From NCBI GenBank assembly GCA_025935445.1, contig JAICVG010000009.1:1-10657 (forward strand): a stretch of 10,657 nucleotides of DNA. The letters run 5' to 3'. The stretch is from Nitrososphaera sp. (GTDB lineage Archaea; Thermoproteota; Nitrososphaeria; Nitrososphaerales; Nitrososphaeraceae). Of the stretch, positions 1 to 10,657 are shown one piece after another. The notes under the pieces are model-generated. The model worked only from the letters and a program-made list of their open reading frames with translations. It was not told the origin of the DNA and searched no databases. The position numbers and the translations under genes are program-made. The stretch's first letter is position 1, and every line of letters begins with the position of its first letter.

Positions 1-83
1 ATGACCACTGTGCCATGGAGATCATTTCCTGCTACTATGGAACTTTCAGCCAAAGAAATTGAGACATCTTTCTGTGCGCTCAA
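1..83 (-). CDS. Partial gene, N-terminus only; possible beta-sandwich (arrestin/Spo0M-like) protein
   Basis: Only the first 27 codons are visible; the gene continues past the left edge. Reading from a TTG at 81-83 gives LSAQKDVSISLAESSIVAGN followed by DLHGTVV. An in-frame stop lies at 99-101, so TTG is the most likely start; no ATG or GTG is available. The alternation of hydrophobic residues around an 'xxAGNDLHGTVV' turn resembles the first two strands of arrestin/Spo0M-like beta-sandwich proteins, which open with a '..pGe.v.G.V.l' pattern. That is a weak resemblance from memory. TATA-like boxes upstream at 111-117 and 137-143 support a real gene here. The plus-strand reading of the same bases (28 codons to a TAA at 85-87) looks less protein-like. 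Confidence 0.45.
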   Translation of the reverse strand, partial: MSAQKDVSISLAESSIVAGNDLHGTVV

Positions 84-110
84 GTAAATAACAAGATCTC
101 ATGACGGCAG

Positions 111-143
111 ATTTAAACCAATTTGAGGAGCAGGCTTTTTTAT
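111..143 (-). promoter_or_regulatory. TATA-like boxes for the left-edge gene
   Basis: On the minus strand there are two candidate boxes. TATAAAAA at 136-143 would start transcription near base 113, giving a 30-base leader. TTTAAAT at 111-117 would start it near base 88, about 5 bases before the TTG start. A perfect 10-base palindrome, ATTAGCTAAT (152-161), sits just upstream of the first box and could be an operator. The rest of 84-342 shows no other gene on either strand that I would defend. Confidence 0.35.
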
Positions 144-342
144 ACTCAATTATTAGCTAATTAATCCAAGACACTGGATACCATCTTGATATAGATCTAC
201 TATATCCTAAGTCGATTATAAGAGGAATGTATATCGCTTCACATTTTCGCCCAACATTTAGATGTAATATCTTTAAAGAAAGAGAGGCAGTAATTGTGAG
301 TGATGGTGAAAATACAAAGCTTGGGAAATTAGAACGGGTGCG

Positions 343-1113
343 TCAAGCGCCAGGTTTTAGTTTGCTTGCCATTCTGTTTCTTGCATCGATTACCTTGATG
401 TGTGTTTGTAGAAGATCTTTATAGCTGTCCAACAACTTTATCTGCTCGTTGTAGGGTTCTTTACGGATCTTAGTCATCGTCTCTTCAAAGAGGCGGACCA
501 AGGAATTGACATTGTCTCCTAAGGAGTGAATATCTTTTGAATCATCTTTAGTAGCAACATTGATAGTTTGTTGCTTGAGTCGTTTTCCTGTTCCCTTCGC
601 AGAATCTTTTGCCTCTTTGATAGCTGTGACGATCAGTTCTTTCAGCGATCCTCCTGTCTTCCTAGCTTCGTCAGAAACTGATATCTCTTCCTCTTTTGAA
701 GTTTGAGGAGAAGAAGAAGAAGGGACTATTACTGCGCTATCGGAAGTACTGGAAGGCACCGTTGGCGATGATTCTACTCCAGGGGTAGTAATATCTTTGT
801 CATCAACAATTGTGTTGGCGGAAATGATGGTGGCAGCTGTAGTCGTCGTCTTGGCTGTTTTTTTTGTCTCAGATCCTTGCCGAGGAGGTTGCGGTTGCGC
901 TTGTGGTTTTTCCTTTTGTTGCTGACTGTGAGTAGCAGTAGTAACAATAACACTCATTTTTGATCTGGTCTGTTCTAAAGATCCACTTGTTTGTAGCGAT
1001 TTACGTCTTCCTCTATGAGTAGCAACAACAATTAACACTGCAGTCAAAGGAATAGCAGCTAGAGATGATGCTATTATCACTGCCCTTTTGTTTAACATCT
1101 TTTTTCTTGTCAT
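343..1113 (-). CDS. Single-pass membrane protein with Ser/Thr-rich linker and helical C-terminal domain, unknown function
   Basis: The 256-residue protein is not one I recognise. It begins with a basic stretch (MTRKKMLNKR), then one hydrophobic segment at about residues 11-32, then a second basic patch (HRGRRK, 33-38), so it is anchored by one N-terminal membrane helix; basic residues on both sides leave the orientation open. Residues about 38-150 are a low-complexity linker rich in Ser, Thr, Pro and Gln, probably disordered. Residues about 150-256 are charged and predicted helical (KELIVTAIKEAKDSAKGT at the start, then a region around LVRLFEETMTKIRKEP), perhaps a coiled-coil interaction domain. 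The start at 1113 fits a TTAAAT box near 1149-1155 with a leader of about 14 bases. The second ATG at 1098 is an alternative and fits a CTATAT box at about 1130-1135. No catalytic motif is visible. Confidence 0.8.
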   Translation of the reverse strand: MTRKKMLNKRAVIIASSLAAIPLTAVLIVVATHRGRRKSLQTSGSLEQTRSKMSVIVTTATHSQQQKEKPQAQPQPPRQGSETKKTAKTTTTAATIISANTIVDDKDITTPGVESSPTVPSSTSDSAVIVPSSSSPQTSKEEEISVSDEARKTGGSLKELIVTAIKEAKDSAKGTGKRLKQQTINVATKDDSKDIHSLGDNVNSLVRLFEETMTKIRKEPYNEQIKLLDSYKDLLQTHIKVIDARNRMASKLKPGA

Positions 1114-1151
1114 TATTATCTTTGTTCACATATAGATCTCTAACCATTCAT

Positions 1152-1268
1152 TTAAGAATTCAAGGTATAATAATCTGGAATATTTATTACCTGTCTTTCT
1201 AAAAGTATTGGCTTGGTGTAGATGTAGACGATTCTATCTAGTAAATCCATCTTAGAGTCTTTTGGCAT
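1152..1268 (-). CDS. Possible 38-residue protein, unknown function
   Basis: An ATG at 1268 opens a 38-residue frame (MPKDSKMDLLDRIVYIYTKP, then an ILLERQVINIPDYY stretch) ending in TAA at 1152-1154. The frame is open for 22 further codons upstream, with a GTG at 1289 as an alternative start (45 residues). The amphipathic start and lack of rare runs look protein-like. It lies 38 bases upstream of the membrane-protein gene on the same strand, so the two could be co-transcribed. No Shine-Dalgarno sequence is evident and the only TATA-like sequence at the right distance (TATTCA) is poor. It may also be a chance frame. Confidence 0.35.
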   Translation of the reverse strand: MPKDSKMDLLDRIVYIYTKPILLERQVINIPDYYTLNS

Positions 1269-1650
1269 GTGTTGTCGACTAGCTGTCACAGAATGAATAG
1301 GAGGACCAAACGAAAATCCGCAACTGTCGATTAACTAATGGTCACACACGAAGGATTGGGAGGAGAAGGAGCAGAGAGCCGATTCTAGGAAACCTGTGAT
1401 AAAATGGTTGATAGAACCCTATGGCAGCGTAACTCATATAGAGAAAGACACCGGCCGGCACCATCTCTCCTACACCACCATCACATCTTAGACATCCTCT
1501 ATATGCCTTCTGTAAATGAATATCCTCTAGCGCCTATTGCCAAGATAAAAGCACAAATCTCAGGTACTAATGTACGCAGAGAATTACATACACACACATA
1601 TACAACCATGCATACGAATGTATGTCTGCAAGTATGAGATAACTCTAATT
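1269..1650. other. Gene-poor gap with a purine-rich stretch, a small dyad and a weak ORF
   Basis: No convincing gene is seen in these 380 bases. Bases 1353-1378 are nearly all purine on the plus strand. A plus-strand frame from an ATG at 1503 to a TGA at 1635-1637 encodes 44 residues. Its start (MPSVNEYPLAPIAKIK) loosely recalls the N-terminus of archaeal histones, but the match stops after about 25 residues. A dyad CATAC-GAAT-GTATG lies at 1611-1624. CATATAC at about 1597-1603 could be the TATA box for the gene starting at 1651, giving a leader near 25 bases. Confidence 0.4.
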
Positions 1651-1959
1651 ATGAATGCCGATTATTTTGAGATACATAGGCTGACAGAAGATCTTGCCAA
1701 GCTCTACTCTACTGCTTGCGCGACATCTTGGTTCAAGATAGCAGGTAACAAGCGCCCATCTCAGGAAGAATTCCGGCATAAGGTTGTGGAATTCATGAAG
1801 CACTTTGAATACACACTTGCCTCTTTTCCACAGACACAGGCAGCGGATCAATTCCGGGAACAGGCAAGGAAAAGCCTAGAAAAAGAAATTGCAAAGGTGC
1901 TTGCAGGCGAGAATAAGGACGTAGAAAAACGCTACAAGTATTTTGTAGACTACAGCTAG
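1651..1959 (+). CDS. Small helical protein, unknown function (102 residues)
   Basis: Starting at the ATG at 1651 the product is 102 residues (MNADYFEIHRLTEDLAKLYS and onward). I do not recognise the family. It is rich in charged residues and predicted almost wholly helical, with helices around 8-25, 39-57 and 64-85, and has no membrane segment or signal peptide. The frame stays open upstream to an ATG at 1570, but that extension (many His, Thr, Cys and Tyr codons from an ACATACACAC-rich stretch) is not protein-like, so 1651 is preferred. The gene ends convergent with the HD-domain gene; its TAG (1957-1959) overlaps that gene's TAG inside a single CTAG. It is most likely a soluble cytoplasmic protein. 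Confidence 0.7.
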   Translation: MNADYFEIHRLTEDLAKLYSTACATSWFKIAGNKRPSQEEFRHKVVEFMKHFEYTLASFPQTQAADQFREQARKSLEKEIAKVLAGENKDVEKRYKYFVDYS

Positions 1960-2579
1960 ATTTCCTTTTGCAGCTGCCTGATGAACAGCATCATAAATTT
2001 TGTACGCTCTTGAGCAATTTTCTTGGCAGTTCTGGTGTGCATCAAGTCCTTTAATTTCAGCAACTTGGTCTGAAAATGGTCAAGTGTCCATTGCATATCG
2101 TCTAAGCCCCTGTCGGATCTGCAGAATGGGTCGTTAGCGTTGTAAAAGGTCCTGTTCTCTGAACCACCAACGCTAAATGTGCGCGCAATCCCTATTGCGC
2201 CGAGCGCGTCAAGCCTGTCAGCATCCTGAAGTATTCTTCCTTCAAGGCTTGCGGGAACAAGTCCCTTGGAGTAGCTGTGCGCCCGTATGCAATAAGATAT
2301 CTGATTTATCTGGTCTTGGGGATAGCCGTGGATCTGCAGTATGTTTTCTGCCAAGTCAGCGCTTTCATCTGAAGACTTGGACGACGTTGCGCTTCTCTTG
2401 GGGTATACAACAAGGTCATGCAGCAGGACTGCAGGAAGCAATATCTCCATATTGGTGCCTTCCCGTCGGCCTATCAGTTTGGCATTTTTATAGACACGCA
2501 TAATGTGGTGGAAGTCATGCGCAGGGTCCCGGCCCTCTAGCATCGTCTTTACTTTTCTTTTGATCATCTCGTGCATCAT
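1956..2579 (-). CDS. HD-domain metal-dependent phosphohydrolase (YedJ/YpgQ-like)
   Basis: The 207-residue protein has the ordered ligands of an HD-superfamily hydrolase: His25 in AHDFHHIMRV (residues 20-29), the His54-Asp55 pair in AVLLHDLVVY, and Asp121 in QDADRLDALGAIG (118-130). These match the YedJ/YpgQ branch, whose studied members hydrolyse nucleoside triphosphates or related phosphate esters with a divalent metal in the cytoplasm. The substrate here cannot be read from sequence. Length is usual for the family and the catalytic set is complete. The ATG at 2579 is immediately followed by a second ATG; I chose the first because a TATA box at 2601-2608 puts transcription start on that base. 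The gene is convergent with the 102-residue protein gene and shares its stop region. It is separated by 293 bases from the zinc-ribbon pair upstream on the same strand. Confidence 0.88.
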   Translation of the reverse strand: MMHEMIKRKVKTMLEGRDPAHDFHHIMRVYKNAKLIGRREGTNMEILLPAVLLHDLVVYPKRSATSSKSSDESADLAENILQIHGYPQDQINQISYCIRAHSYSKGLVPASLEGRILQDADRLDALGAIGIARTFSVGGSENRTFYNANDPFCRSDRGLDDMQWTLDHFQTKLLKLKDLMHTRTAKKIAQERTKFMMLFIRQLQKEI

Positions 2580-2600
2580 ACTAATCGACTCCCACCTGTT

Positions 2601-2608
2601 TATTAATA
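2601..2608 (-). promoter_or_regulatory. TATA box for the HD phosphohydrolase gene
   Basis: TATTAATA is centred 26 bases before the A of the ATG at 2579, so the transcript is predicted to be leaderless. A GGTGGGAG sequence between box and start resembles a Shine-Dalgarno but would be outside a leaderless message. The remainder of 2609-2872 shows no gene on either strand that I can support. Confidence 0.5.
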
Positions 2609-2872
2609 AAAGTGGCTAGTATGAAGAGGCGTGCTGAATCTTATCCTTTCTGTCAGTAGCTTTTCAATTCAAATGAACCTTTTAACATATATTTAGATAT
2701 GACTACCAGAGCATCAAGTGAAAATTTCCTAAGAGGATAGAGACAAGCTATCGTGCTAGACTTATGAGAAAGCAAGTAACCCAAAGGAAATATTAGCTAT
2801 ATTTCATGCAAAGTATCTGACTTATAGATAAGCAGATTCAAAGATCCTGCCATGAGCTCCTTATACTCTTCC

Positions 2873-3034
2873 TTAGGCGATATTTGGCTCCGTTCTATCT
2901 TGCCAACAATTTAGACAAAAGTTACCCTCCTCTTGAAAGATGAAAGCCTCCTGGTTACATATATCGCAATTTATCCTTTTTTCTCTGGATAATACGCTCA
3001 CCGTTGCATCATCTTCAAGATAGACGTCTAACAT
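2873..3034 (-). CDS. Small treble-clef/zinc-ribbon-like protein (53 residues)
   Basis: An ATG at 3034 starts a 53-residue frame ending in TAA at 2873-2875. It carries two CxxC pairs: Cys23-x2-Cys26 in RINCDICNQE and Cys40-x2-Cys43 in GNFCLNCWQD. The 13-residue spacing suits one structural zinc site. The N-terminal 20 residues are acidic (MLDVYLEDDA). The family is not identified beyond that. The ATG lies inside the end of the upstream zinc-ribbon gene: the seven bases ATGTTAG hold both this start and the previous stop, a 7-base overlap typical of translational coupling. No separate promoter is needed. Two Cys pairs, codon-wise clean reading and the coupling make it a credible gene despite its size. 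Nucleic-acid or protein binding is a guess. Confidence 0.72.
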   Translation of the reverse strand: MLDVYLEDDATVSVLSREKRINCDICNQEAFIFQEEGNFCLNCWQDRTEPNIA

Positions 3035-3234
3035 TGGCTAGCTCCTCTTCTATTGTGTCGTCGTCGTCGTCTGCTCTGGCCTCTTAGTTGTCTATTGCAG
3101 CACGGACACCGAATAGTACCAGATTCAAAATACTTGGCACACTTTGTACAATATTTAAGGCCCAACGCATATGGGCTAGGCGAGGGAAAGCATGGATATG
3201 CTAGTCTATCACACAGGTTTCTACACGGTGGCAT
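3028..3234 (-). CDS. Thaumarchaeal MPPC-type zinc-ribbon protein with Arg-rich tail
   Basis: The 68-residue product starts MPPCRNLCDRL, has a central zinc ribbon YCTKCAKYFESGTIRCPCCN (Cys29, Cys32, Cys43, Cys46) and ends in a tail with five consecutive Arg (55-59) and more Arg after. As I recall, proteins opening MPPC with Cys4 and Cys8 and a 'C..C ... CPCC..RLR' ribbon are a multi-copy family of Nitrososphaerales; their role is unknown, with DNA- or RNA-associated regulation the usual guess. The basic tail supports nucleic-acid contact. The tail codons come from a CGT/CGA-type triplet run (about 3059-3071) and could vary by slippage. A TATA box at 3261-3266 puts the transcript start two or three bases before this ATG, which fixes the start. 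The gene overlaps the next zinc protein by 7 bases. Confidence 0.8.
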   Translation of the reverse strand: MPPCRNLCDRLAYPCFPSPSPYALGLKYCTKCAKYFESGTIRCPCCNRQLRGQSRRRRRHNRRGASQC

Positions 3235-3260
3235 TGCTTTAGAACCTGAGAATTTCTTGC

Positions 3261-3266
3261 TATAAC
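3261..3266 (-). promoter_or_regulatory. TATA box for the zinc-ribbon pair
   Basis: GTTATAGC on the minus strand is centred about 26-28 bases before the ATG at 3234, implying a transcript with virtually no leader that would carry both overlapping zinc-protein genes. Confidence 0.45.
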
Positions 3267-3277
3267 CTAGCTAGCAC

Positions 3278-3316
3278 GAAAGGGGGAGGGAGAGGAAAGA
3301 ACATGTTATGTCATGT
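3278..3316. promoter_or_regulatory. Homopurine tract and inverted repeat between divergent genes
   Basis: Between the zinc-ribbon pair (minus) and the ribbon-helix-helix gene (plus) lie a 24-base run of purines only (3278-3301, with GGGGGAGGG inside) and a perfect inverted repeat ACATG-N6-CATGT (3301-3316). The repeat is 29 bases upstream of the plus-strand TATA box, a plausible operator position. Binding by the neighbouring ribbon-helix-helix protein is inference. Confidence 0.35.
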
Positions 3317-3344
3317 GATTACATATAATATATGAACAAAATTG

Positions 3345-3352
3345 CTATAAAG
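3345..3352 (+). promoter_or_regulatory. TATA box for the ribbon-helix-helix gene
   Basis: CTATAAAG is centred near 3349, predicting transcription from about 3375 and a leader of about 12 bases to the ATG at 3387. A second AT-rich stretch (ACATATAATATATG, 3321-3334) lies further upstream and is less well placed. Confidence 0.5.
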
Positions 3353-3386
3353 TAGCCCAATTATCTTATAGGAACTGTGAACTGAT

Positions 3387-3764
3387 ATGGTCAAGCGAGG
3401 TGGCAAGGAGGTAATTACCGTAGAGATATTTAAGGAGACATACGATACAATGAAGGCTATTGCCACTAAGAAGCATTGGAGCACTAAGGACTACATCAAC
3501 AATGTGCTCTTGGAGGCAATCGAAAGAGACAAGTTCCTCTACTCATATGCTCCCTCGCTGTCAAAAGTGGGTTATGAAGATAACATCCTGTTTATTCGAG
3601 ACGCAAAGCTTGGCAAAACTACAGAGATCTCTCTTCGAGACCGCTCCCTTTACTGTAATGTATGTAATTCCAAGGACTGTGTCCATATTCACTACGCTTT
3701 TGCCCTGCCAGAAATGGCCAAGCTGTATCTGCATAGACTAGTATCTAAAGCTAGAACAAGGTGA
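3387..3764 (+). CDS. Ribbon-helix-helix protein with C-terminal CxxC/CxH zinc-like cluster
   Basis: The 125-residue protein has an N-terminal ribbon-helix-helix pattern: strand KEVITVEIF (7-15), helix 1 at about 16-29, and helix 2 beginning STKDYINNVL (32-41) and running to about 49. This is the MetJ/Arc-type DNA-binding fold, which acts as a dimer. After a middle segment comes a Cys/His cluster, YCNVCNSKDCVHIHYAFALP (89-108): Cys90-x2-Cys93-x4-Cys98-x-His100, similar in spacing to a SWIM zinc finger (CxC...CxH). I recall similar RHH plus Cys/His proteins in Thaumarchaeota, without an assigned function. A role as a metal-dependent or redox-dependent transcription regulator is inferred. It is divergent from the zinc-ribbon pair across 152 bases that contain an inverted repeat, so autoregulation or control of the pair is possible. 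Confidence 0.72.
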   Translation: MVKRGGKEVITVEIFKETYDTMKAIATKKHWSTKDYINNVLLEAIERDKFLYSYAPSLSKVGYEDNILFIRDAKLGKTTEISLRDRSLYCNVCNSKDCVHIHYAFALPEMAKLYLHRLVSKARTR

Positions 3765-4105
3765 TCAAGTCAAAGGCAGACCACCAATTTCAGATGTTTT
3801 GGTTGTCATACTAAAGAAAATTCGAAATCTGATATCTCTATATCAAAATAATCTAGGCAGATGATCTTTTGCTGCAAGACTCCTTACGTATTATAGCTGC
3901 CAAGCTGCTGGATGAGGAGAAATGGGTACAGCAGCACTTTCATACTAAAAGGAGATCCTATATATTGCATGCTATGAGGTTTTACAACAAAGTCTGCATT
4001 TTTTGGTATTTAGATGCGTAGGTTATTTCAGCGACTATGTGTGTATCTTGCATTTTAGGCTAAAGATATTATTATATTATCACTACCAAACAAACCCATC
4101 CCCTC
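3765..4105. other. Gene-poor gap with weak short frames
   Basis: No established gene is recognised. The gap is A+T-rich. It holds a 50-residue plus-strand frame (3869-4021, listed separately) and a 23-residue minus-strand frame from an ATG at 4053 (MQDTHIVAEITYASKYQK...) that I would not defend. I saw no repeats, hairpins with T-runs or traces of a transposase. Confidence 0.4.
3869..4021 (+). CDS. Doubtful 50-residue ORF
   Basis: A TTG at 3869 opens 50 codons ending in TAG at 4019-4021. The first half (LLQDSLRIIAAKLLDEEKWV) reads like an amphipathic helix; the second half is less protein-like (HAMRFYNKVCIFWYLDA). CTATATCA at 3838-3845 is centred about 26 bases before base 3867-3868, which would make a leaderless transcript from this TTG. 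The family is not recognised. It could be a small gene, the remnant of a larger one, or chance. Confidence 0.22.
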   Translation: MLQDSLRIIAAKLLDEEKWVQQHFHTKRRSYILHAMRFYNKVCIFWYLDA

Positions 4106-4125
4106 TTTTAAATCGTTAATATATC
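4106..4125 (+). promoter_or_regulatory. TATA-like boxes upstream of the stand-alone Cys-domain gene
   Basis: TTTTAAAT (4106-4113) and TTAATATATC (4116-4125) predict transcription from about 4136 or 4147, giving leaders of about 31 or 20 bases before the TTG at 4167. The second is the better placed. Confidence 0.35.
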
Positions 4126-4166
4126 AGAGCTTAGTTCTTTCAATGGTTGTTGGCTGAATTCATATA

Positions 4167-4343
4167 TTGAAGAGCAAAGGACAACAAACATGTGCCCTAT
4201 GCGGTCGGGTCATCAAAGCAAGCGCTATCAAGCAAAAAGTGGGTGGAACTTATTATATAGTTGATAAAGATGAGTGTGCTATAATATTGAAGAGACTCCA
4301 TAGTGTATATGGCAATGATTTTTGCATAATGCTCAAAGAATAA
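4167..4343 (+). CDS. Stand-alone TRASH-like Cys-domain miniprotein (58 residues)
   Basis: From a TTG at 4167 the frame gives 58 residues ending in TAA at 4341-4343. The core is TCALCGRVIKASAIKQ (8-23), then GGTYYIVDKDECAIIL (26-41), then KRLHSVYGNDFC (42-53), with Cys9, Cys12 and Cys37 as likely metal ligands and Cys53 extra. It is a clear relative of residues 279-316 of the large ATPase-cyclase protein encoded head-on 38 bases away: both share CALC, D-x2-EC, an RL pair and YG at matching positions. TRASH/YHS-like domains bind metal and often sense it. A TGA lies four codons before the TTG in the same frame, after an ATG at 4143, so this could be the broken tail of a longer gene instead. No longer gene can be traced upstream, which favours a true miniprotein. 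Confidence 0.55.
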   Translation: MKSKGQQTCALCGRVIKASAIKQKVGGTYYIVDKDECAIILKRLHSVYGNDFCIMLKE

Positions 4344-4381
4344 CATCATCACAAAATAATTCATTTATCTATTCTAATTTA

Positions 4382-5950
4382 TTATTCATTAGAGAAAACC
4401 TTGGAGGGAATTTCTGGATTGCCAAAGTCATCAGAATACGCCGAATACAATTTGATTTGCTGCCCGTGTTTTATCCTGTATTTGTTGGAAATCAGATTAA
4501 TTACCCTACGATACTCGTCTTTTAATGAAATTAACTCTTCAGCCATTTTTTCTGCTATGAGTATATGACCACTGTCGCCGGCATCCATCACTCTACGAGC
4601 AATTATAATGCCAGGACCCCATATGTTCTGTACATTATTGAGATCGCTCACTGTAAATACGGGACCTGATCCTAGTCCGATTCGTACTCCTATTGAATCT
4701 GCAGCATATTTCTCTTCATTATATGCGCGTACCTTGTGGTGAAGCTGAATGCTAAGTTCAAGTGGACTTTCTGGATTTGAGAGAAACCCAATTGCCATTC
4801 CATCACCTGACGGTAAAATGATCTTCTTGCCTGTGGATGCCTTTCTGAAAGAATCACAAGAATAAATAAGCTCATTTAGGATTTGAATTTTCTGAATCTG
4901 CTTTTTCACAGACAGCGTTGGGTCCGAAAGACCAACCATGTCAATGTAGAAAAAGCTTGCATGAAAAGCTTGTGAGGGCAATCCTGTATCTGATATTTTT
5001 GAACCATATGCATTTTCCAACCTGTAGTAAATCTCCATACACTCTTTGCTATCAAATATAAGATCTGATTTAACTAAGGGTGTTCCTATTACTGGCTTGG
5101 CACAAAGCGCGCATGTTATTTCGGAGGGAGATCCAAGAGATGAGCGCTGTGCATCGCTAAAAATAATAGTGCCGCTGCTAGAGATTTTGAAACTAGTCCA
5201 TTTAGGATCATAATAAACTCCTTTCAAATGGCGCACCCTGATGCTTCTAATTGCCGCGTCGTTAGAATCTTCTTTTAATCTCATCTCGATAATGCCATCT
5301 ACTATGGAACTCAGATTACTAACCATTCTCTGATCTACTGATGAGGTAGTCAGTGTAAAAATTGCAGTTACATTCAGACCTTTCAAAATACGTGTCAAGT
5401 CCATTACAAATTCTATCAACGTCTTTTCTCCAATTAAGAGTAGTGTGTGCGTCATTGAATCTATAACTAATCGTATTGGTTTATCATTACCGGCGACGAC
5501 ATCCTCATGCTCCCTCTTCTGATCTGAAGAGGCCTTCTGCGTCTCACTTGTAGACTTAATTTCAAGGCTACGTTTCAGAGCTGAAAGTATTGCATTTGCT
5601 AGCCCTTTTCCAGAAACTGCTCTCTCATTATTAATGGGCAATGACATATCATCACATGGATTGATATATTCCAGACGATCGAGAATATTCTTATTTTCTA
5701 CATTAGAAAAGAGCGCGTCAAATTGCATCCTGCTCAAGTCCGTACTTATGAACATGCATTTTTCTCCTTTGAGCAATCCATCTAACAGGAACTGTCTGCA
5801 GTACATTGTCTTGCCTACACCTGAAGGACTGGAGAGGAGCAAGATCTTTGGGCCCATGGTTTGAAAGGGCAGATAAATTCCTGGTATCAAGAGACTACTC
5901 CTGATATTGTTATTCTGAGCACGATCCAAATTATTACTAGCCCTCGACAA
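4382..5950 (-). CDS. RecA/KaiC-like ATPase fused to TRASH-like Cys domain and class III nucleotidyl-cyclase-like domain
   Basis: The 522-residue protein has three parts. Residues about 20-265 form a RecA/KaiC-like ATPase: Walker A SPSGVGKT (41-48, first Gly replaced by Ser), ISTD (68-71) where KaiC has its catalytic acids, a charged insertion at about 131-156, and Walker B IRLVIDS (159-165). Residues 279-316 are a small Cys domain (Cys280, Cys283, Cys304). Residues about 330-505 are a class III cyclase homology domain with metal aspartates Asp337 (FYIDMVG) and Asp383 (PSGDGMAIGF), VRIGLGSGPV (422-431) and NIWGPGIIIARRVMDAG (442-458). Arg453 is kept, but the substrate Lys, substrate Asp and transition-state Asn of active enzymes align with Leu379, Asn442 and Ile449. 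The start is TTG directly after an in-frame TGA; Met32 would cut into the ATPase. It follows the MinD-like gene by 15 bases, so the two are almost certainly one transcript. Cytoplasmic; output unknown. Confidence 0.82.
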   Translation of the reverse strand: MSRASNNLDRAQNNNIRSSLLIPGIYLPFQTMGPKILLLSSPSGVGKTMYCRQFLLDGLLKGEKCMFISTDLSRMQFDALFSNVENKNILDRLEYINPCDDMSLPINNERAVSGKGLANAILSALKRSLEIKSTSETQKASSDQKREHEDVVAGNDKPIRLVIDSMTHTLLLIGEKTLIEFVMDLTRILKGLNVTAIFTLTTSSVDQRMVSNLSSIVDGIIEMRLKEDSNDAAIRSIRVRHLKGVYYDPKWTSFKISSSGTIIFSDAQRSSLGSPSEITCALCAKPVIGTPLVKSDLIFDSKECMEIYYRLENAYGSKISDTGLPSQAFHASFFYIDMVGLSDPTLSVKKQIQKIQILNELIYSCDSFRKASTGKKIILPSGDGMAIGFLSNPESPLELSIQLHHKVRAYNEEKYAADSIGVRIGLGSGPVFTVSDLNNVQNIWGPGIIIARRVMDAGDSGHILIAEKMAEELISLKDEYRRVINLISNKYRIKHGQQIKLYSAYSDDFGNPEIPSKVFSNE

Positions 5951-5965
5951 TCAATATACCACGCT

Positions 5966-6862
5966 CTAAACTCCTATCTGCCTTGCCATGGTAAGCTGTT
6001 CAAGCTGTTTTGCGAAAGGATGATCTGGGTGTTGCAGCACCGTCAGGAATTCTTTTTTCTGGAACTGGATATCGCAATAGCAAGGGATAGCAGATATCAA
6101 CTCCATCTTGGTTTGATCAGAGAGAAAAGTATCAGAACCAAGTTCCTTCTCAAATGTTTGTATTTGTATCGGAGTCCCTTCAGCTAGCACACTACTATTA
6201 CTCTTATTTGTAGATTGGGAGCCTTGAAGATAGGTCCTTGGAATACAATAACCAGATACTAAATTTAAAAGAAGAAAGGATTTCGATCCAAACTTTGTAA
6301 ATGATCCATAGATATCGTTCGCCATTTTTATAGTGCCTTCAATATCAAGATCTCCAAACTTGAGTGTAAGGAATAGTACGTCTGCAACTGCTAGTGAATT
6401 GATGGACCAATATCTGATACCTGGGCTTGTATCTAGGATAACATAATCTGATTCATAATCTGAGATCAAATCTTCTCGTAGTTGAACAAACCTTCTAAGA
6501 AGCTGTATATTGGCATTGGCAGTCTTGATGCTCCCTTCTAATCTGTAAATCTCATCCTTTTGGGGGTTTGAAAAACCAACCAATAACTTTCCCATCTTCT
6601 TAGTTCTATCGGCTGCATGTTTGGTCAGAGTGGATGTCATGTCGACCATTATTTCATTTAAGTCAGAATTCTCAAACAAGAGATCGTTTATCCACTTATT
6701 TGGAGAATAATCAAAATAGGCATGAAGGCTAGGCGCATAAACGTCAAGATCAAGCAAGGACACATTATATCCTTTAAGTGATAGCATGGCGGCTAGGTTA
6801 CATGCTATTGTTGTTTTGCCAGTGCCGCCCTTGTATGAGTGGAACGCAATGCATCGGGGCAT
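5966..6862 (-). CDS. MinD/ParA-family ATPase
   Basis: The 298-residue protein has the deviant Walker A motif SYKGGTGKTT (9-18) with the signature Lys11 and catalytic Lys16, the A' segment LLDLDVYAPSL (36-46) and Walker B YVILDTSPG (140-148). This places it in the MinD/ParA/Mrp (SIMIBI) class, ATPases that dimerise on ATP and position or load partner molecules on membranes or DNA. The end (HPDHPFAKQLEQL) is a usual tail for the family; I see no obvious C-terminal membrane-targeting amphipathic helix. ParB, centromere-like repeats and a septum gene are all absent nearby, so plasmid or chromosome partition is not indicated. It is the first gene of an operon with the ATPase-Cys-cyclase protein, which is its likely partner. 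The ATG at 6862 just before KGGTGKTT is the only sensible start. Confidence 0.88.
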   Translation of the reverse strand: MPRCIAFHSYKGGTGKTTIACNLAAMLSLKGYNVSLLDLDVYAPSLHAYFDYSPNKWINDLLFENSDLNEIMVDMTSTLTKHAADRTKKMGKLLVGFSNPQKDEIYRLEGSIKTANANIQLLRRFVQLREDLISDYESDYVILDTSPGIRYWSINSLAVADVLFLTLKFGDLDIEGTIKMANDIYGSFTKFGSKSFLLLNLVSGYCIPRTYLQGSQSTNKSNSSVLAEGTPIQIQTFEKELGSDTFLSDQTKMELISAIPCYCDIQFQKKEFLTVLQHPDHPFAKQLEQLTMARQIGV

Positions 6863-6894
6863 ATCTTATGGGTATAACTCATTAGACATACAGA

Positions 6895-6905
6895 CCTATT
6901 TAGGA
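6895..6905 (-). promoter_or_regulatory. Possible TATA box for the MinD-cyclase operon
   Basis: TCCTAAATAGG on the minus strand is centred near 6900, predicting a start near 6874 and a 12-base leader. GTTATACC closer in (about 6872-6879) would start transcription inside the gene and is less likely. Confidence 0.3.
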
Positions 6906-7207
6906 ATTGCTTGACTCCTTTAACCTTGGCTAAACTGAGGATAACAAAGTAAGCCTATGCTTATTGCTTGCCTGACATTAACGTGTGCGTACTAAGATGT
7001 AGTGTAATGGTAAAAGCCAACTCGAAAAGAGTTTATTATCTGTACTCTTCACTTGCTGTCTTCGTAACTACTGGAACAGAAAAATTTGTTGTTTAGATTT
7101 TGCATAAACTGAGATTTTCTGTATAACGGTTGTATATGTATTCTGGAACCACCGGCATAAGCAATATCAAGCACGTTTTTAAATAGGCAAACTACGCGCA
7201 ATCACAT
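6906..7207. other. Gap with an orphan TATA-like box and a 21-codon frame
   Basis: No established gene, tRNA or repeat is seen. On the minus strand a strong TATA-like sequence, CTATTTAAAAA (7176-7186), has no annotated gene downstream. Its predicted start (about 7155) falls within 3 bases of an ATG at 7158 that opens 21 codons (MPVVPEYIYNRYTENLSLCK...) to a TAA at 7093-7095. It could drive a small RNA or a microprotein, or be an AT-rich chance match. Confidence 0.3.
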
Positions 7208-7216
7208 ATTAAAAAA
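7208..7216 (-). terminator. T-rich terminator after the permease gene
   Basis: On the minus strand TTTTTTAAT begins 29 bases after the permease stop, preceded by CTCTCAGC. Archaeal transcription stops at such T-runs without needing a hairpin. The gene itself ends in four successive in-frame stops (7236-7247). Confidence 0.5.
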
Positions 7217-7244
7217 GCTGAGAGATTTTAGATATCTATTATTA

Positions 7245-9596
7245 TTATTTGAACACTCTCTGGATTGCGGACTTGGCTCTATGCACGCCGGGTATGGTAA
7301 AGTCCTTGGCTATTATTACAGGGCAGTTGAACTGATCCAGCAGTGCCAAAAAGTCAGGGTTCTGAAACACTGAATAGCCGCCCACTGTGGCACCCAATAT
7401 GACAATGTCTGGCTGTAACGTGCTGACGGCTGCAAGCACAGCATCGGCAGCAGCTGGGCTTCCTTCAGGCAACTTCACTTCCATTAGGTTGACGCCTAGC
7501 ATGCTCAAGTAGTCCTGTTGCATTGCAACACTGCTACTCTTGTGATTGTGACCACCACCCCCTCTGACAAGTGAGACCAGTCCTACTTTGAACATACCCG
7601 AATGCTCCAGCCAGCTGGTAGCTTTTAGCAGGACATCTGAGTGGTCGCCTCCGTCATAGATTGCCACCAAGCTCCTTTTCTCTCCATCTGCAATTGCTTC
7701 CGGCTTCCTCATCTCAATGTCAAAGTGCTTCTGCTTTGGTTCTAGCTCAAGCGTGTCATTCTCTGCCTTTATTGCAAGCACCTTGCAGGTCATCAGAGTT
7801 GAAAGTTTCCTGTCGTGGCGAAGTGTTTCAAAATCGGTGACAAGAAGGTCAATCCTTTGCTCTTCAATGGTTGCAAGGATCGCTTCAGTCGAGTCATGTG
7901 AAACCCTCACAAGGTAGTGGCTTGGAGTATTTTCCCTGTCTAATATTTTTTCCAAAGGATCAAAAGATCGCTTGGCAGTGTCAGCAAATGCTACGCCGGC
8001 AGAAAGCGGCGTTTGATGAGGCACAGTTATGACGCGAAGTATGTTTATCTCGCCTCCTGTCTCTTTAGCTACTCTTATTGCATATTTCAAGAGCCTGTCA
8101 GGGTCTTCCGGTGTATATGGAATGAGGATGCGGAAGTCCTGCCTGTTTAGGTCTCCTTCAGAAGTCACTATGGGCGCATAGTGCTGTATCTCCTGCTTGA
8201 AAGTGTACATCCTATAAAGCACAAAGCCTACTAATATCCATAGTATAGTTATGCCCCAGCTGAGCGGTTGGGTGACAAGCAGATAGAGCGCAAGCCCCAA
8301 CTTTAGGAAAATGCCGACAATCGGTATCACAGGGAAGAAGGGCGTCTTGAACCCATACGATAGCTTATTGCCATATATCCTACGTATGGTGATAACTGCA
8401 ATGTTTACCTGTATGAACAGGAGAAGAAAGATCACACCTGCCGCCACTGCAATATCTGCAAGCGGCAGCGCGTATGCCATAAAAGACATAATTATTCCAG
8501 AAATTATTATCGCAATGTGGGGTGTTCTGTTTACTGGGTGAATGGAACTGAGCTTATGGGGGAGGTTGTAGTGCCGACCCATCGCAAATGCCACTCTAGC
8601 CGAAGAAAATGTAGTAGCGTTCAGCGCAGCCAGTGTTGAGACCATTCCGCCGCCAAGCACTATCAAGGCGCCATAGGGCAGAAACATCTCGGCGGCCTTC
8701 ATGATACCAAGCTCGCCACCTTCGCCTATGAACCTCCATGCAGCAATCCCTTCAGGTGATATTGCGCCTATTGATACATACGCTACTAGGCAATAGAGTG
8801 TGACTACTATTGCAAGCGAGATAAAGATCGCTCTTGGTATGTTACGCTTTGGGTTTTTAACTTCCTCTCCCGTCTGGACGATGATCTCGTAACCTTCAAA
8901 AGCTATGAAAGTGAGGCCCATCGCAGCAACCAAGCCCCCTATGCCTGTTGGCATAAAGTCAGCAAAGTTGTCCGTCGAATTTGGGTTGTTATGCATCATC
9001 CAAGAGCCGGCGACTATTAGAGAAAGGATGGTGCCAAGCTGTACAATAGTGACAATAGTTCCGGTCTTGCCTGTTTCAGAAGCTCCCTTGATGTTAATGT
9101 ATGCAAATGCTGCGATGGAGGCCACGGCTATCAGCTTGTCAAATGGTATGACTCCAAACAATGGCTGGTCAGATAATACGCCGGCCACGTTTGGGCCAAG
9201 CAACTGGTACAAGAAAGCCCCAAAGCCGACTGCATAAAGGCTTCCTGCTATTATGTGAGCAAACCATGCCATCCAGCCGCTGATAAACGCATTTGGTCGG
9301 GGCAGTCCTTCTCTTATCCACAGATACCCTCCTCCTGCCTCTGGCATTGCTGAGCCCAGTTCTGCGTATGCCATTGCCGTAAACAGCGTAATGGTGGCAT
9401 TGATGATGAATGCAAGAATGACTGCACTGCCTGCTAAACCAATTGCTGGTCCAGTCAGCACGAAGATTGCACCACCAATCATGCCTGCTATGCCAACCAT
9501 TATGATGTCCATAAGGCTCAGAGTGCGCACAAGCTGATGTTGATGTTGATGCTCTCCGGGCGGACCAGGAGATTCTGGGCCTGTCGAGGCCGACAA
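7245..9596 (-). CDS. APC-superfamily amino-acid permease with two C-terminal UspA-like domains
   Basis: The 783-residue protein has a membrane part of about 12 helices (residues 26-465) followed by two universal-stress-protein-like domains (about 487-612 and 640-766). APC features are the broken first helix VGIAGMIGGAIFVLTG (34-49), EAGGGYLWIREGL (86-98) and FEGYEIIVQTGEEVKNPKR (233-251). APC transporters of this kind import amino acids or polyamines by exchange or with cations; the substrate cannot be read here. The permease-Usp fusion is known from archaea, where the cytoplasmic tail is thought to regulate transport. Neither Usp domain shows a complete GxxGx9G(S/T) ATP motif; the second has only GATVGG (735-740), so they may not bind ATP in the classic way. 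The start is TTG at 9596, giving a Pro-rich tail and HQHQHQ (16-21) before helix 1; no ATG precedes helix 1 except Met29. It is divergent from the polynucleotide kinase gene. Confidence 0.9.
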   Translation of the reverse strand: MSASTGPESPGPPGEHQHQHQLVRTLSLMDIIMVGIAGMIGGAIFVLTGPAIGLAGSAVILAFIINATITLFTAMAYAELGSAMPEAGGGYLWIREGLPRPNAFISGWMAWFAHIIAGSLYAVGFGAFLYQLLGPNVAGVLSDQPLFGVIPFDKLIAVASIAAFAYINIKGASETGKTGTIVTIVQLGTILSLIVAGSWMMHNNPNSTDNFADFMPTGIGGLVAAMGLTFIAFEGYEIIVQTGEEVKNPKRNIPRAIFISLAIVVTLYCLVAYVSIGAISPEGIAAWRFIGEGGELGIMKAAEMFLPYGALIVLGGGMVSTLAALNATTFSSARVAFAMGRHYNLPHKLSSIHPVNRTPHIAIIISGIIMSFMAYALPLADIAVAAGVIFLLLFIQVNIAVITIRRIYGNKLSYGFKTPFFPVIPIVGIFLKLGLALYLLVTQPLSWGITILWILVGFVLYRMYTFKQEIQHYAPIVTSEGDLNRQDFRILIPYTPEDPDRLLKYAIRVAKETGGEINILRVITVPHQTPLSAGVAFADTAKRSFDPLEKILDRENTPSHYLVRVSHDSTEAILATIEEQRIDLLVTDFETLRHDRKLSTLMTCKVLAIKAENDTLELEPKQKHFDIEMRKPEAIADGEKRSLVAIYDGGDHSDVLLKATSWLEHSGMFKVGLVSLVRGGGGHNHKSSSVAMQQDYLSMLGVNLMEVKLPEGSPAAADAVLAAVSTLQPDIVILGATVGGYSVFQNPDFLALLDQFNCPVIIAKDFTIPGVHRAKSAIQRVFK

Positions 9597-9643
9597 ATTT
9601 AGCGGTAAAACAGTCTAATAGAGAAATAAACGTTTAGAATTGA

Positions 9644-9649
9644 TATATA
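9644..9649 (-). promoter_or_regulatory. TATATA box in the permease/kinase divergent region
   Basis: CTATATATC on the minus strand predicts permease transcription from about 9620 (24-base leader). A second AT-rich site, CGTTTATTT (about 9623-9631), would instead give a 4-base leader. Because TATATA is symmetrical it could also serve the plus strand, but the kinase gene has nearer candidates such as AAACTATTT (9675-9683). Confidence 0.4.
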
Positions 9650-9715
9650 GTCGTCAAACGCTCGGCTTTAGAAAAACTATTTGGAGCAAACCGCACAGTA
9701 ATACACACAAGAGAG

Positions 9716-10657
9716 ATGCCCAACGTGCTCAAGGTTAGAATGATAAAAGGTCCGGCCAAGGTAGTTGTAAAAGGGGCATGCCACGTTCTTGGAAGTGACG
9801 TGTCGGGGCAGACAGTAAAGGTAAGGGCCGGCAAGGCGCTCCCATTTGAGCCAAGCAACAGGTGCAGGCTGCAAGCTTGGCTTGGACATGGCGCAAGGCT
9901 ATGGTGGGCTGACCCTAAGCAAGCCGGAACCTCTATGTGGTACAGTCTTGCCCAGCAGGTATGTGTCTTAGCTGCCCGCAAAAAAACTACAGTAATGCTC
10001 GTAGGTGATACTGACACCGGCAAGTCAACGCTTGCGATATATCTTGCAAATATGGCAATCAGGCGTGGGCTTGTTCCAATCGTTATAGACGGAGACGTTG
10101 GTCAGGGTGATCTCGCGCCGCCTACTGCCATAGGAGCTGCAGTCCTCTCAAAACAGGTAGTTGATCTGCGTGATGTTAATGCCAACCTGTTTGAATTTGT
10201 TGGAAGCATATCACCCATAGGATGTGAGGGCTTGATTGCAAAAAAATCGAGGTCTATACTTGATAGGACTGGTCCGATCACCGATATCTGCATTGTCAAC
10301 ACAGACGGCTACGTGAAGAACGGTGGCCTCCAGTACAAGGAAATGATTGCAGAAGAGTTGCAACCTGATGTAGTAATATGCCTGGGTGAAAATGTATTGC
10401 TACTTGATAGGTCTAAGATCCGGTCGTCGCAGATTCTGCACGCTAGCTCAAGCAGTCAGGCATACAAGTCAAGGCTTGAGCGCTTGAGCCGCAGACTCGA
10501 TCAGTTCCTGCGATATGTAGGCAATGCATCTTATACTGCGAAGCTGTCACAAGTTAAGTTCGATTACATGAGCAAGCTTTTTTCGTCTTCCGATCTATTT
10601 CAGCAGCAGCCGCCGCCCATAAAGCAGCTAGAGCCAGAAAACATGACAGGAATGTTC
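9716..10657 (+). CDS. Clp1/Grc3-family polynucleotide 5'-hydroxyl kinase, C-terminus missing
   Basis: The reading frame from ATG 9716 stays open to the right edge: 314 residues, no stop. A beta-rich N-terminal domain (about 1-75) is followed by a kinase domain with Walker A VGDTDTGKST (96-105), the family motif VIDGDVGQGDLAPP (123-136) corresponding to the Asp-x-Asp-x-Gly-Gln and Pro signature of Clp1/NOL9/Grc3, and TDGYVKNGG (196-204) plus PDVVICLGE (217-225). Family members transfer the gamma-phosphate of ATP to the 5'-OH of RNA, and in the Pyrococcus enzyme also DNA, in RNA processing or repair. The tail after residue about 290 becomes Gln/Pro-rich. Relatives are about 350-370 residues, so perhaps 40-60 residues lie outside. 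The predicted leader is short and shows no Shine-Dalgarno. It is divergent from the permease with 119 bases between. Confidence 0.88.
   Translation, partial: MPNVLKVRMIKGPAKVVVKGACHVLGSDVSGQTVKVRAGKALPFEPSNRCRLQAWLGHGARLWWADPKQAGTSMWYSLAQQVCVLAARKKTTVMLVGDTDTGKSTLAIYLANMAIRRGLVPIVIDGDVGQGDLAPPTAIGAAVLSKQVVDLRDVNANLFEFVGSISPIGCEGLIAKKSRSILDRTGPITDICIVNTDGYVKNGGLQYKEMIAEELQPDVVICLGENVLLLDRSKIRSSQILHASSSSQAYKSRLERLSRRLDQFLRYVGNASYTAKLSQVKFDYMSKLFSSSDLFQQQPPPIKQLEPENMTGMF

Follow-up and report, generated by a model that had tools for sequence, protein, structure and literature searches.

Archaeal MinD proteins position archaella and chemosensory arrays (PMC11588486), and passages of PMC4858521 connect KaiC/FlaH as well as FleN/MinD ATPases with type IV pili. 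Class III cyclases of archaea are described as very few in number in PMC8646023. Here, a locus is analysed in which a MinD/ParA-family ATPase (MinD in the following) is encoded next to a fusion protein composed of a KaiC/RecA-like ATPase domain, a cysteine knuckle and a class III cyclase-like domain. The window, i.e. the whole stretch of DNA that was analysed, comprises 10,657 nucleotides from Nitrososphaera sp. (GCA_025935445.1, contig JAICVG010000009.1, positions 1 to 10,657). Despite the rarity of archaeal class III cyclases, such a domain, KaiC and MinD form a recurrent module here. What recurs is a distinct MinD-family ATPase plus proteins with homologous knuckles: the fusion, a small stand-alone knuckle protein and, elsewhere, histidine kinases with an N-terminal knuckle. 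The parts are of known kinds, and their combination appears to be new; no description of the module was found in the literature searched, which did not extend to the 2017 KaiC census. Nitrososphaeraceae drive much of soil nitrification, and little is known about their regulation.

The MinD-fusion pair

MinD (298 amino acids, aa) is encoded at 5966..6862 and the fusion (522 aa, TTG start) at 4382..5950, both on the minus strand, as a first-pass annotation of 4382..6862 had proposed. The spacing of 15 bases (5951..5965) that separates the stop codon of MinD from the TTG is borne out, a figure that presupposes a fusion start at 5950. The three-part domain composition assigned to the fusion (P-loop ATPase, Cys domain, cyclase-like domain) holds as well: the Pfam cut-offs are exceeded by PF06745 (KaiC), with 76.3 bits vs. 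26.6, and by PF00211 (cyclase), with 23.7 bits vs. 21.9, and the Cys segment lies between the two.

When 400 genomes of the class were searched, the fusion found some match at E<=1e-3 in 148, including other cyclase architectures and KaiC-only proteins, and MinD found matches in 360, mostly distant ParA relatives. Among the matches listed were 57 fusion-type loci in 46 Nitrososphaeria genomes and 99 close MinD genes. The adjacency of MinD and fusion is not due to chance, since a close MinD lies within 1.5 kb at 45 of the 57 loci. Gene order is conserved, too: MinD is located upstream on the same strand in 42 of the 45 pairs, divergently in two and convergently in one. At least one pair is present in 38 of the 46 genomes with fusion-type loci, which excludes an adjacency restricted to the genome studied here. 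Among named genomes, Nitrososphaera and Ca. Nitrosocosmicus contain the locus; Ca. Nitrosopolaris has a fusion without adjacent MinD. The pair occurs in two families, several genomes carry two copies that are each paired (e.g. G072, G115, G287), and the pair persists while the flanking genes, compared by eye, mostly differ between genera. In a mirror-tree comparison of 18 pairs, MinD and fusion distances correlated with r=0.71, and none of 5000 permutations gave a value as high.

A contig filed as 'candidate division TM6 bacterium SOIL31' (L115, LDIY01000023.1) has a Nitrososphaera-type PLD-MinD-fusion arrangement and is probably a misassigned archaeal contig. Furthermore, a large family of related cyclase-like proteins exists (L096-L100, L142, L143, L145-L180), mostly of ~390-480 aa and composed of a cyclase and a C-terminal domain. 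The members that were compared have no knuckle. No MinD neighbour is labelled beside L142, L143, L145-L147 and L149-L180; L148 is a true pair.

MinD matches AAA_31, ParA and CbiA of Pfam and carries the deviant Walker ATPase signature KGGxGKT/S in the form HSYKGGTGKT. Of the 99 close matches listed, 65 MinD genes were collected with their surroundings. The signature lysine K11 and the P-loop lysine K16 as well as D38, D40, D139, D144 and N200 are invariant in all 65 sequences. The same applies to three Cys and two His, namely H8, which directly precedes Walker A, C206, C261-x-C263 and H281. The fold agrees with the signature: the AlphaFold model (mean pLDDT, the predicted local distance difference test score, 78.2) has FlhG/MinD/Soj as nearest folds in Foldseek, with FleN also near and a best E-value of 8e-11. 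The NCBIfam model of archaeal MinD, TIGR01969, is not reached (35.3 bits vs. 201.75). In a comparison with 38 solved sequences, the best stretches end at or before profile position 185 and the C-terminal part is unmatched, and the match to PF10609 (Mrp-type metallochaperone ATPases) is limited to residues 4-55. The locus had been proposed as an undescribed archaeal signalling or localisation system. A signalling-type pair without earlier description in the literature searched is indeed present, whereas localisation is unproven: inspection of 30 MinD tails by eye made no C-terminal amphipathic membrane-targeting helix evident.

The three parts of the fusion, all on the minus strand, differ in how far they resemble known families. 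Its KaiC/RecA-like ATPase domain (residues ~22-270, 5141..5887) has a Walker A (SPSGVGKT) and a Walker B motif (VIDS); at some other loci (L067, L069) the Walker motifs are degenerate. The catalytic Glu pair of KaiC, compared by eye, is not conserved: the window copy has Asp-Leu, relatives mostly Ser/Asn-Leu and the family profile Ser-Leu. The circadian KaiC model TIGR02655 yields 30.3 bits (cut-off 546.25), and there is no tandem CI/CII arrangement. An oligomeric timing device of the KaiC type, as considered in the first-pass annotation, is therefore unlikely, because the fusion has one KaiC domain, the Glu pair is not conserved and three versions in family f2 (L074-L076) lack KaiC altogether. 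A VIA search with the fusion returned a list filled by KaiC chains and gave little information on knuckle and cyclase.

The knuckle (residues 277-316, 5003..5122) is located between the KaiC and the cyclase domain. It reads C280-x2-C283...F299-D-x3-C304 and follows the TRASH/LIM-like pattern C-x2-C...F-[D/H]-x2-3-[C/H] with putative metal ligands. C280 and C283 are invariant in 39 aligned sequences, and so are the metal aspartates D337 and D383 and R453 of the cyclase-like domain (residues ~326-512, 4415..4975). By profile, the nearest solved relative of this domain is Ma1120 (E 9e-8). At the Ma1120 positions of the selector Lys, the selector Asp and the Asn, the fusion has L379, N442 and I449; these positions presumably act in base selection and the transition state. 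The canonical adenylate/guanylate set (Lys/Asp or Glu/Cys-Gly selectors, transition-state Asn) is not present in the cyclase domain of the fusion. In the alignment, Ma1120, which we take to be an active cyclase, itself has Ala at the Asn position. In the stretch shown, its variant entries 5D0G and 5D0H depart from the wild type at both selectors and at the residue preceding the Arg, whose counterpart in the fusion is R452.

The sequence supports TTG at 5950 as the probable start codon of the fusion. TGA directly precedes it, the peptide N-terminal of residue 20 is conserved in relatives, and the indel upstream of residue 20 in comparison with the nearest relative amounts to 12 bases. Database copies begin at residue 8, 21 or 32, and entry P0013 (491 aa), located on a contig of 10,657 bases and 100% identical to the fusion, apparently represents this very gene. 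A start at residue 32 is unlikely because the IPG motif, whose P23 is conserved to at least 90%, would be lost.

Knuckle proteins as companions of MinD

The fusion is found within two genes of MinD in 20 of the 65 collected cases, and a histidine kinase in 19, of which 15 have a detected knuckle and four do not. Five further MinD genes have only a multi-helix membrane protein (TM6) within this distance. In particular, family-f1 MinD copies elsewhere adjoin histidine kinases with an N-terminal knuckle, which makes the knuckle the commonest shared companion of MinD. The knuckles of fusion and kinases are homologous (profile comparison, probability 97.6, E 3.5e-12); judged by these sequences, the knuckle is what both partner types have in common. 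On the MinD tree, partner types are clustered, with 11 changes vs. a shuffled mean of 33.5 and none of 200 shuffles as low, a result to which near-copies contribute. In family f2 (three genomes; L074, L075, L076), MinD is followed by a knuckle-cyclase protein of 247-254 aa without KaiC. Two of these loci (L074, L075) have the head-to-tail order PLD-small knuckle-MinD-knuckle-cyclase. The earlier suggestion that the fusion itself is the partner of MinD agrees with the conserved pairing and the co-variation of both proteins, but the fusion is not the sole partner: knuckle histidine kinases lie beside the same MinD family at other loci, and a small knuckle gene had been overlooked.

This gene is located in the window at 4167..4343 on the plus strand, convergent with the fusion gene, and encodes a 58 aa protein from a TTG start. 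Small stand-alone open reading frames (ORFs) of this kind were revealed with profile A7, which was built from the knuckles of fusions and kinases. The window ORF was detected at E 5.7e-9 by a profile not containing it, and an ortholog in the nearest genome (G379) is identical at 51 of 58 residues. The changes fall on codon positions 1, 2 and 3 in numbers of 2, 3 and 9, and this concentration at position 3 argues that the ORF is coding. Among 76 collected loci, 27 have a small knuckle ORF whose frame does not exceed 200 aa (29 in all). In two f2 operons, such an ORF follows the PLD-like gene and precedes MinD, all genes running the same way (L074, 6189-6371; L075, 3636-3806).

Of 61 family genomes, 50 have a match to the knuckle when those in fusions and kinases are counted. 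In the 11 genomes with at most 80 contigs and small knuckle ORFs, 14 of 15 such ORFs have a member of the MinD family no more than 5 kb away, where 0.11 would be expected. A hand count with profile A7 in 12 near-complete genomes (frames of at most 200 aa, E<=1e-3) placed 12 of 17 small ORFs near MinD, and long knuckle proteins are near MinD in 21 of 29 rows. Where the places of MinD are known (54 genomes), 43 genomes have both a close MinD and a knuckle, four have neither, two lack only MinD and five lack only the knuckle. Close MinD, knuckle and fusion are jointly absent from four genomes that are 87-99% complete. It follows from these counts that the knuckle is a wider element of Nitrososphaeraceae whose link to MinD is strong but not exclusive. 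Its pattern resembles TRASH and YHS below their cut-offs. With PF08394 (TRASH), small knuckle proteins reach at most 20.8 bits (cut-off 27) and the window ORF gives no match; in 14 genomes searched, canonical TRASH matches above the cut-off are located at other places.

At several loci, the pair is adjoined by a PLD-like protein without kinase (~350-390 aa) and a small SCO4226-like protein (PF14026, 42.3 bits vs. 28.5). Both genes remain together away from the pair in two genomes (G132, G136). In the genome of the window, no SCO4226-like match was found, and the PLD-like matches are weak and lie in longer frames. SCO4226 of Streptomyces binds nickel (PMC4186839).

Other surroundings of MinD were observed as well. 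In genus g2, 14 MinD orthologs (L081, L084, L198-L200, L202, L205, L206, L208, L210-L212, L217, L218) share a conserved neighbourhood, mostly beside a membrane-anchored protein of 210 aa with a weak DUF1806 match, and no knuckle gene was detected within two genes. Near another MinD gene, L085 encodes at 4296-4868 (minus strand) a 191 aa winged-helix protein with a C-terminal knuckle that resembles CopT-type copper regulators; its matches to HTH_45 (24.3 bits) and TRASH_HVO_1752_C (20.1 bits) are both below the cut-off. In the window itself, a fusion of an amino acid permease and a universal stress protein domain is encoded ~380 bases upstream of MinD (7245-9596, minus strand). At 3387-3764 (plus strand), there is a gene for a 125 aa protein without Pfam or NCBIfam match; by eye, its N-terminus resembles a ribbon-helix-helix and its Cys/His C-terminus a SWIM domain.

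Proposed mechanism and rival explanations

We tentatively regard the locus as an ATP-switched signalling module of Nitrososphaeraceae in which MinD docks on knuckle proteins, perhaps in a metal- or redox-linked manner, a reading to which we give a little less than even weight. ATP-dimerised MinD would dock on the knuckle of its partner and thereby switch or cluster it. The invariant Cys and His residues of MinD and the Cys, Asp and His residues of the knuckle might bind metal or sense the redox state and so gate docking. The small knuckle protein could serve as a carrier or as a competing adaptor, and the KaiC domain as an oligomeriser that binds nucleotide and has a regulatory role. The output would come from the cyclase-like domain, either as a nucleotide-metal sensor or as a cyclase of a non-canonical substrate, and at sister loci the histidine kinase would replace it. 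MinD-knuckle binding, the involvement of metal and the cyclase-like output are what we infer. Speaking for this reading are the recurrence and co-variation of the pair, the KaiC-less f2 operons, the homologous knuckles of both partner types, the clustering of partner types on the MinD tree, the small knuckle ORFs close to MinD, the four genomes in which all three components are absent, the invariant Cys and His of MinD and the SCO4226-like companions. Nitrososphaeraceae depend on copper and, with urease, on nickel. In the passages of PMC7785015 that were searched, on copper limitation in N. viennensis, the MinD, fusion and knuckle genes are not named. A bolder version, a metal/redox-gated nucleotide pathway particular to ammonia-oxidising archaea, is unlikely: in it, the three-Cys/two-His MinD would load knuckle adaptors and switch a fusion whose product is a cyclic nucleotide distinct from cAMP and cGMP (cyclic adenosine and guanosine monophosphate), and the same switch would be reused for histidine kinases.

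Several observations weigh against a switch built on MinD and the knuckle. Twelve of the 57 fusion-type loci have no MinD within 1.5 kb; three of them lie at a contig edge, two have a MinD at 2.1 and 2.5 kb, and seven, alone on their contig, are unexplained, six of these belonging to genera g6/g9. For 21 of the 65 MinD genes, no neighbour within two genes is a fusion, kinase, PLD or TM6 gene; 14 of these form one orthologous clade. The mirror-tree correlation, expected under co-inheritance, partly reflects shared species descent. The part of the MinD model that contains C206 (204-242) has low confidence. The knuckle profiles were trained on ORFs from MinD loci and are biased to such matches. 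When all counted rows are considered, 24 of 66 small knuckle ORFs are near MinD; genera g5, g6, g8, g9 and g12 give 0 of 41, which is partly due to short contigs, yet some contigs are at least 29 kb long. Knuckle proteins of intermediate size (101-320 aa) are near MinD in one of 18 rows.

In a positioning system like that of MinD2/MinD4/FleN, MinD would place archaella, pili or chemosensory arrays, with an ArlH-like adaptor role for the fusion. Such a role accords with the literature on motility structures and type IV pili cited at the outset and with FlhG and FleN among the nearest folds, but we consider it improbable. CheW (PF01584) is present in five of 61 family genomes and in four of 32 pair genomes. 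Chemotaxis as obligatory partner was rejected because CheW is absent from 28 of the 32 pair genomes; the family uncouples MinD from chemotaxis. The secretion ATPase PF00437 exceeds its cut-off in 57 of the 61 genomes, which would suit a pilus. Strong matches (E<1e-30), the only ones counted as pilus-type motors, occur in eight of 61 family genomes and seven of 32 pair genomes; the weaker ones, mostly in frames of ~605-655 aa with E ~1e-6 to 1e-10, were assumed to represent another ATPase family. Strong PF00437 matches and CheW are both missing from 25 of the 32 pair genomes, and completeness reaches 90% or more in 16 of these 25. Since, moreover, no pilus or chemotaxis gene adjoins the pair in the window, as had been noticed before, and the f2 versions have no KaiC domain, an archaellum or pilus partner is unlikely. 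A mere conservation of gene order, with neighbours kept by descent and without joint function, is very improbable. The 14 g2 orthologs, which keep their neighbourhood without a detected knuckle gene, would fit it; the pair, however, persists amid changing flanks and in two families, is retained in each of the duplicated copies and outlasts the loss of the KaiC domain.

The output could also be a canonical second messenger, cAMP or cGMP, made by the fusion under MinD control and read by CRP-like receptors. PF00211 above its cut-off, the conserved D337, D383 and R453 and the presence of the cyclic nucleotide receptor-type domain PF00027 in 26 of 61 family genomes speak for this. Against it, the purine selectors are replaced (L379, N442), the Asn is I449, and 19 of the 32 pair genomes, eight of them at least 95% complete, have no PF00027 match (GAF-type receptors were outside this search), which makes a canonical cyclase rather unlikely. 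A CRP-type receptor as required effector was dismissed on the same count. The cyclic nucleotide-binding domains of the 26 genomes, such as G000:C126:5182-5442 and its relatives (L221-L224), mostly lie in ORFs of ~510-600 aa. A search for defence systems with PADLOC gave weak matches alone (mads_8, PDC-M28B, MkoB, DrmC) and no system, and no PADLOC cyclase model matched the fusion. Alternatively, the cyclase-like domain might act as a pseudo-enzyme: it would only bind a nucleotide along with metal, and MinD or the knuckle partner would thereby be informed of the energy state. The loss of three canonical cyclase residues, the missing KaiC Glu pair and the degenerate Walker motifs at two loci point in this direction, but the invariance of both metal aspartates and the Arg in 39 of 39 sequences seemingly exceeds the need of simple binding, and Ma1120 likewise has Ala at the Asn position. 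We consider such a sensor possible, if doubtful. The MinD-knuckle switch leaves room for a sensor as well as for a cyclase with a non-canonical substrate.

Comparison with known systems

MinD of the window shares the deviant Walker A fold with MinD/ParA/FleN-FlhG proteins such as Haloferax MinD2 and MinD4 and FleN of the FleN-FleQ system. FleN, as complex structures show, also controls a second ATPase-bearing regulator, an arrangement comparable to the one proposed for MinD and the fusion. In contrast to MinD and FleN-FlhG, the family has three invariant Cys and two invariant His, stays below the cut-off for archaeal MinD and has an unmatched C-terminal part; unlike archaeal MinD2/MinD4, it occurs mostly in genomes without CheW. 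Metallochaperone ATPases of the MinD type (Mrp/NUBPL, CooC, archaeal HypB) use a Cys motif that binds metal or Fe-S between subunits; in MinD of the window, the invariant C206, C261-x-C263 and H281 are candidates for such a site. The fusion differs from the archaeal KaiC-like 'signal transduction hubs' and from ArlH in that it lacks the Glu pair, is joined to a knuckle and a cyclase-like domain and scores far below circadian cut-offs.

The knuckle departs from the TRASH consensus in that Asp or His replaces a Cys. The metal-sensing TRASH domain of the archaeal CopT/CopR regulators and the copper chaperone CopM resembles it in being a short C-x2-C element that occurs both stand-alone and fused, as in CopM and CopR (passages of PMC7830388). 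With class III cyclases such as Ma1120, the fusion shares the fold family, the metal Asp pair and the Arg. Pycsar pyrimidine cyclases, according to passages of PMC11224242, combine the Asp pair with different residues for base selection, as does the fusion, which is set apart from class III and Pycsar cyclases alike by L379, N442 and R452 at the selector positions and by I449.

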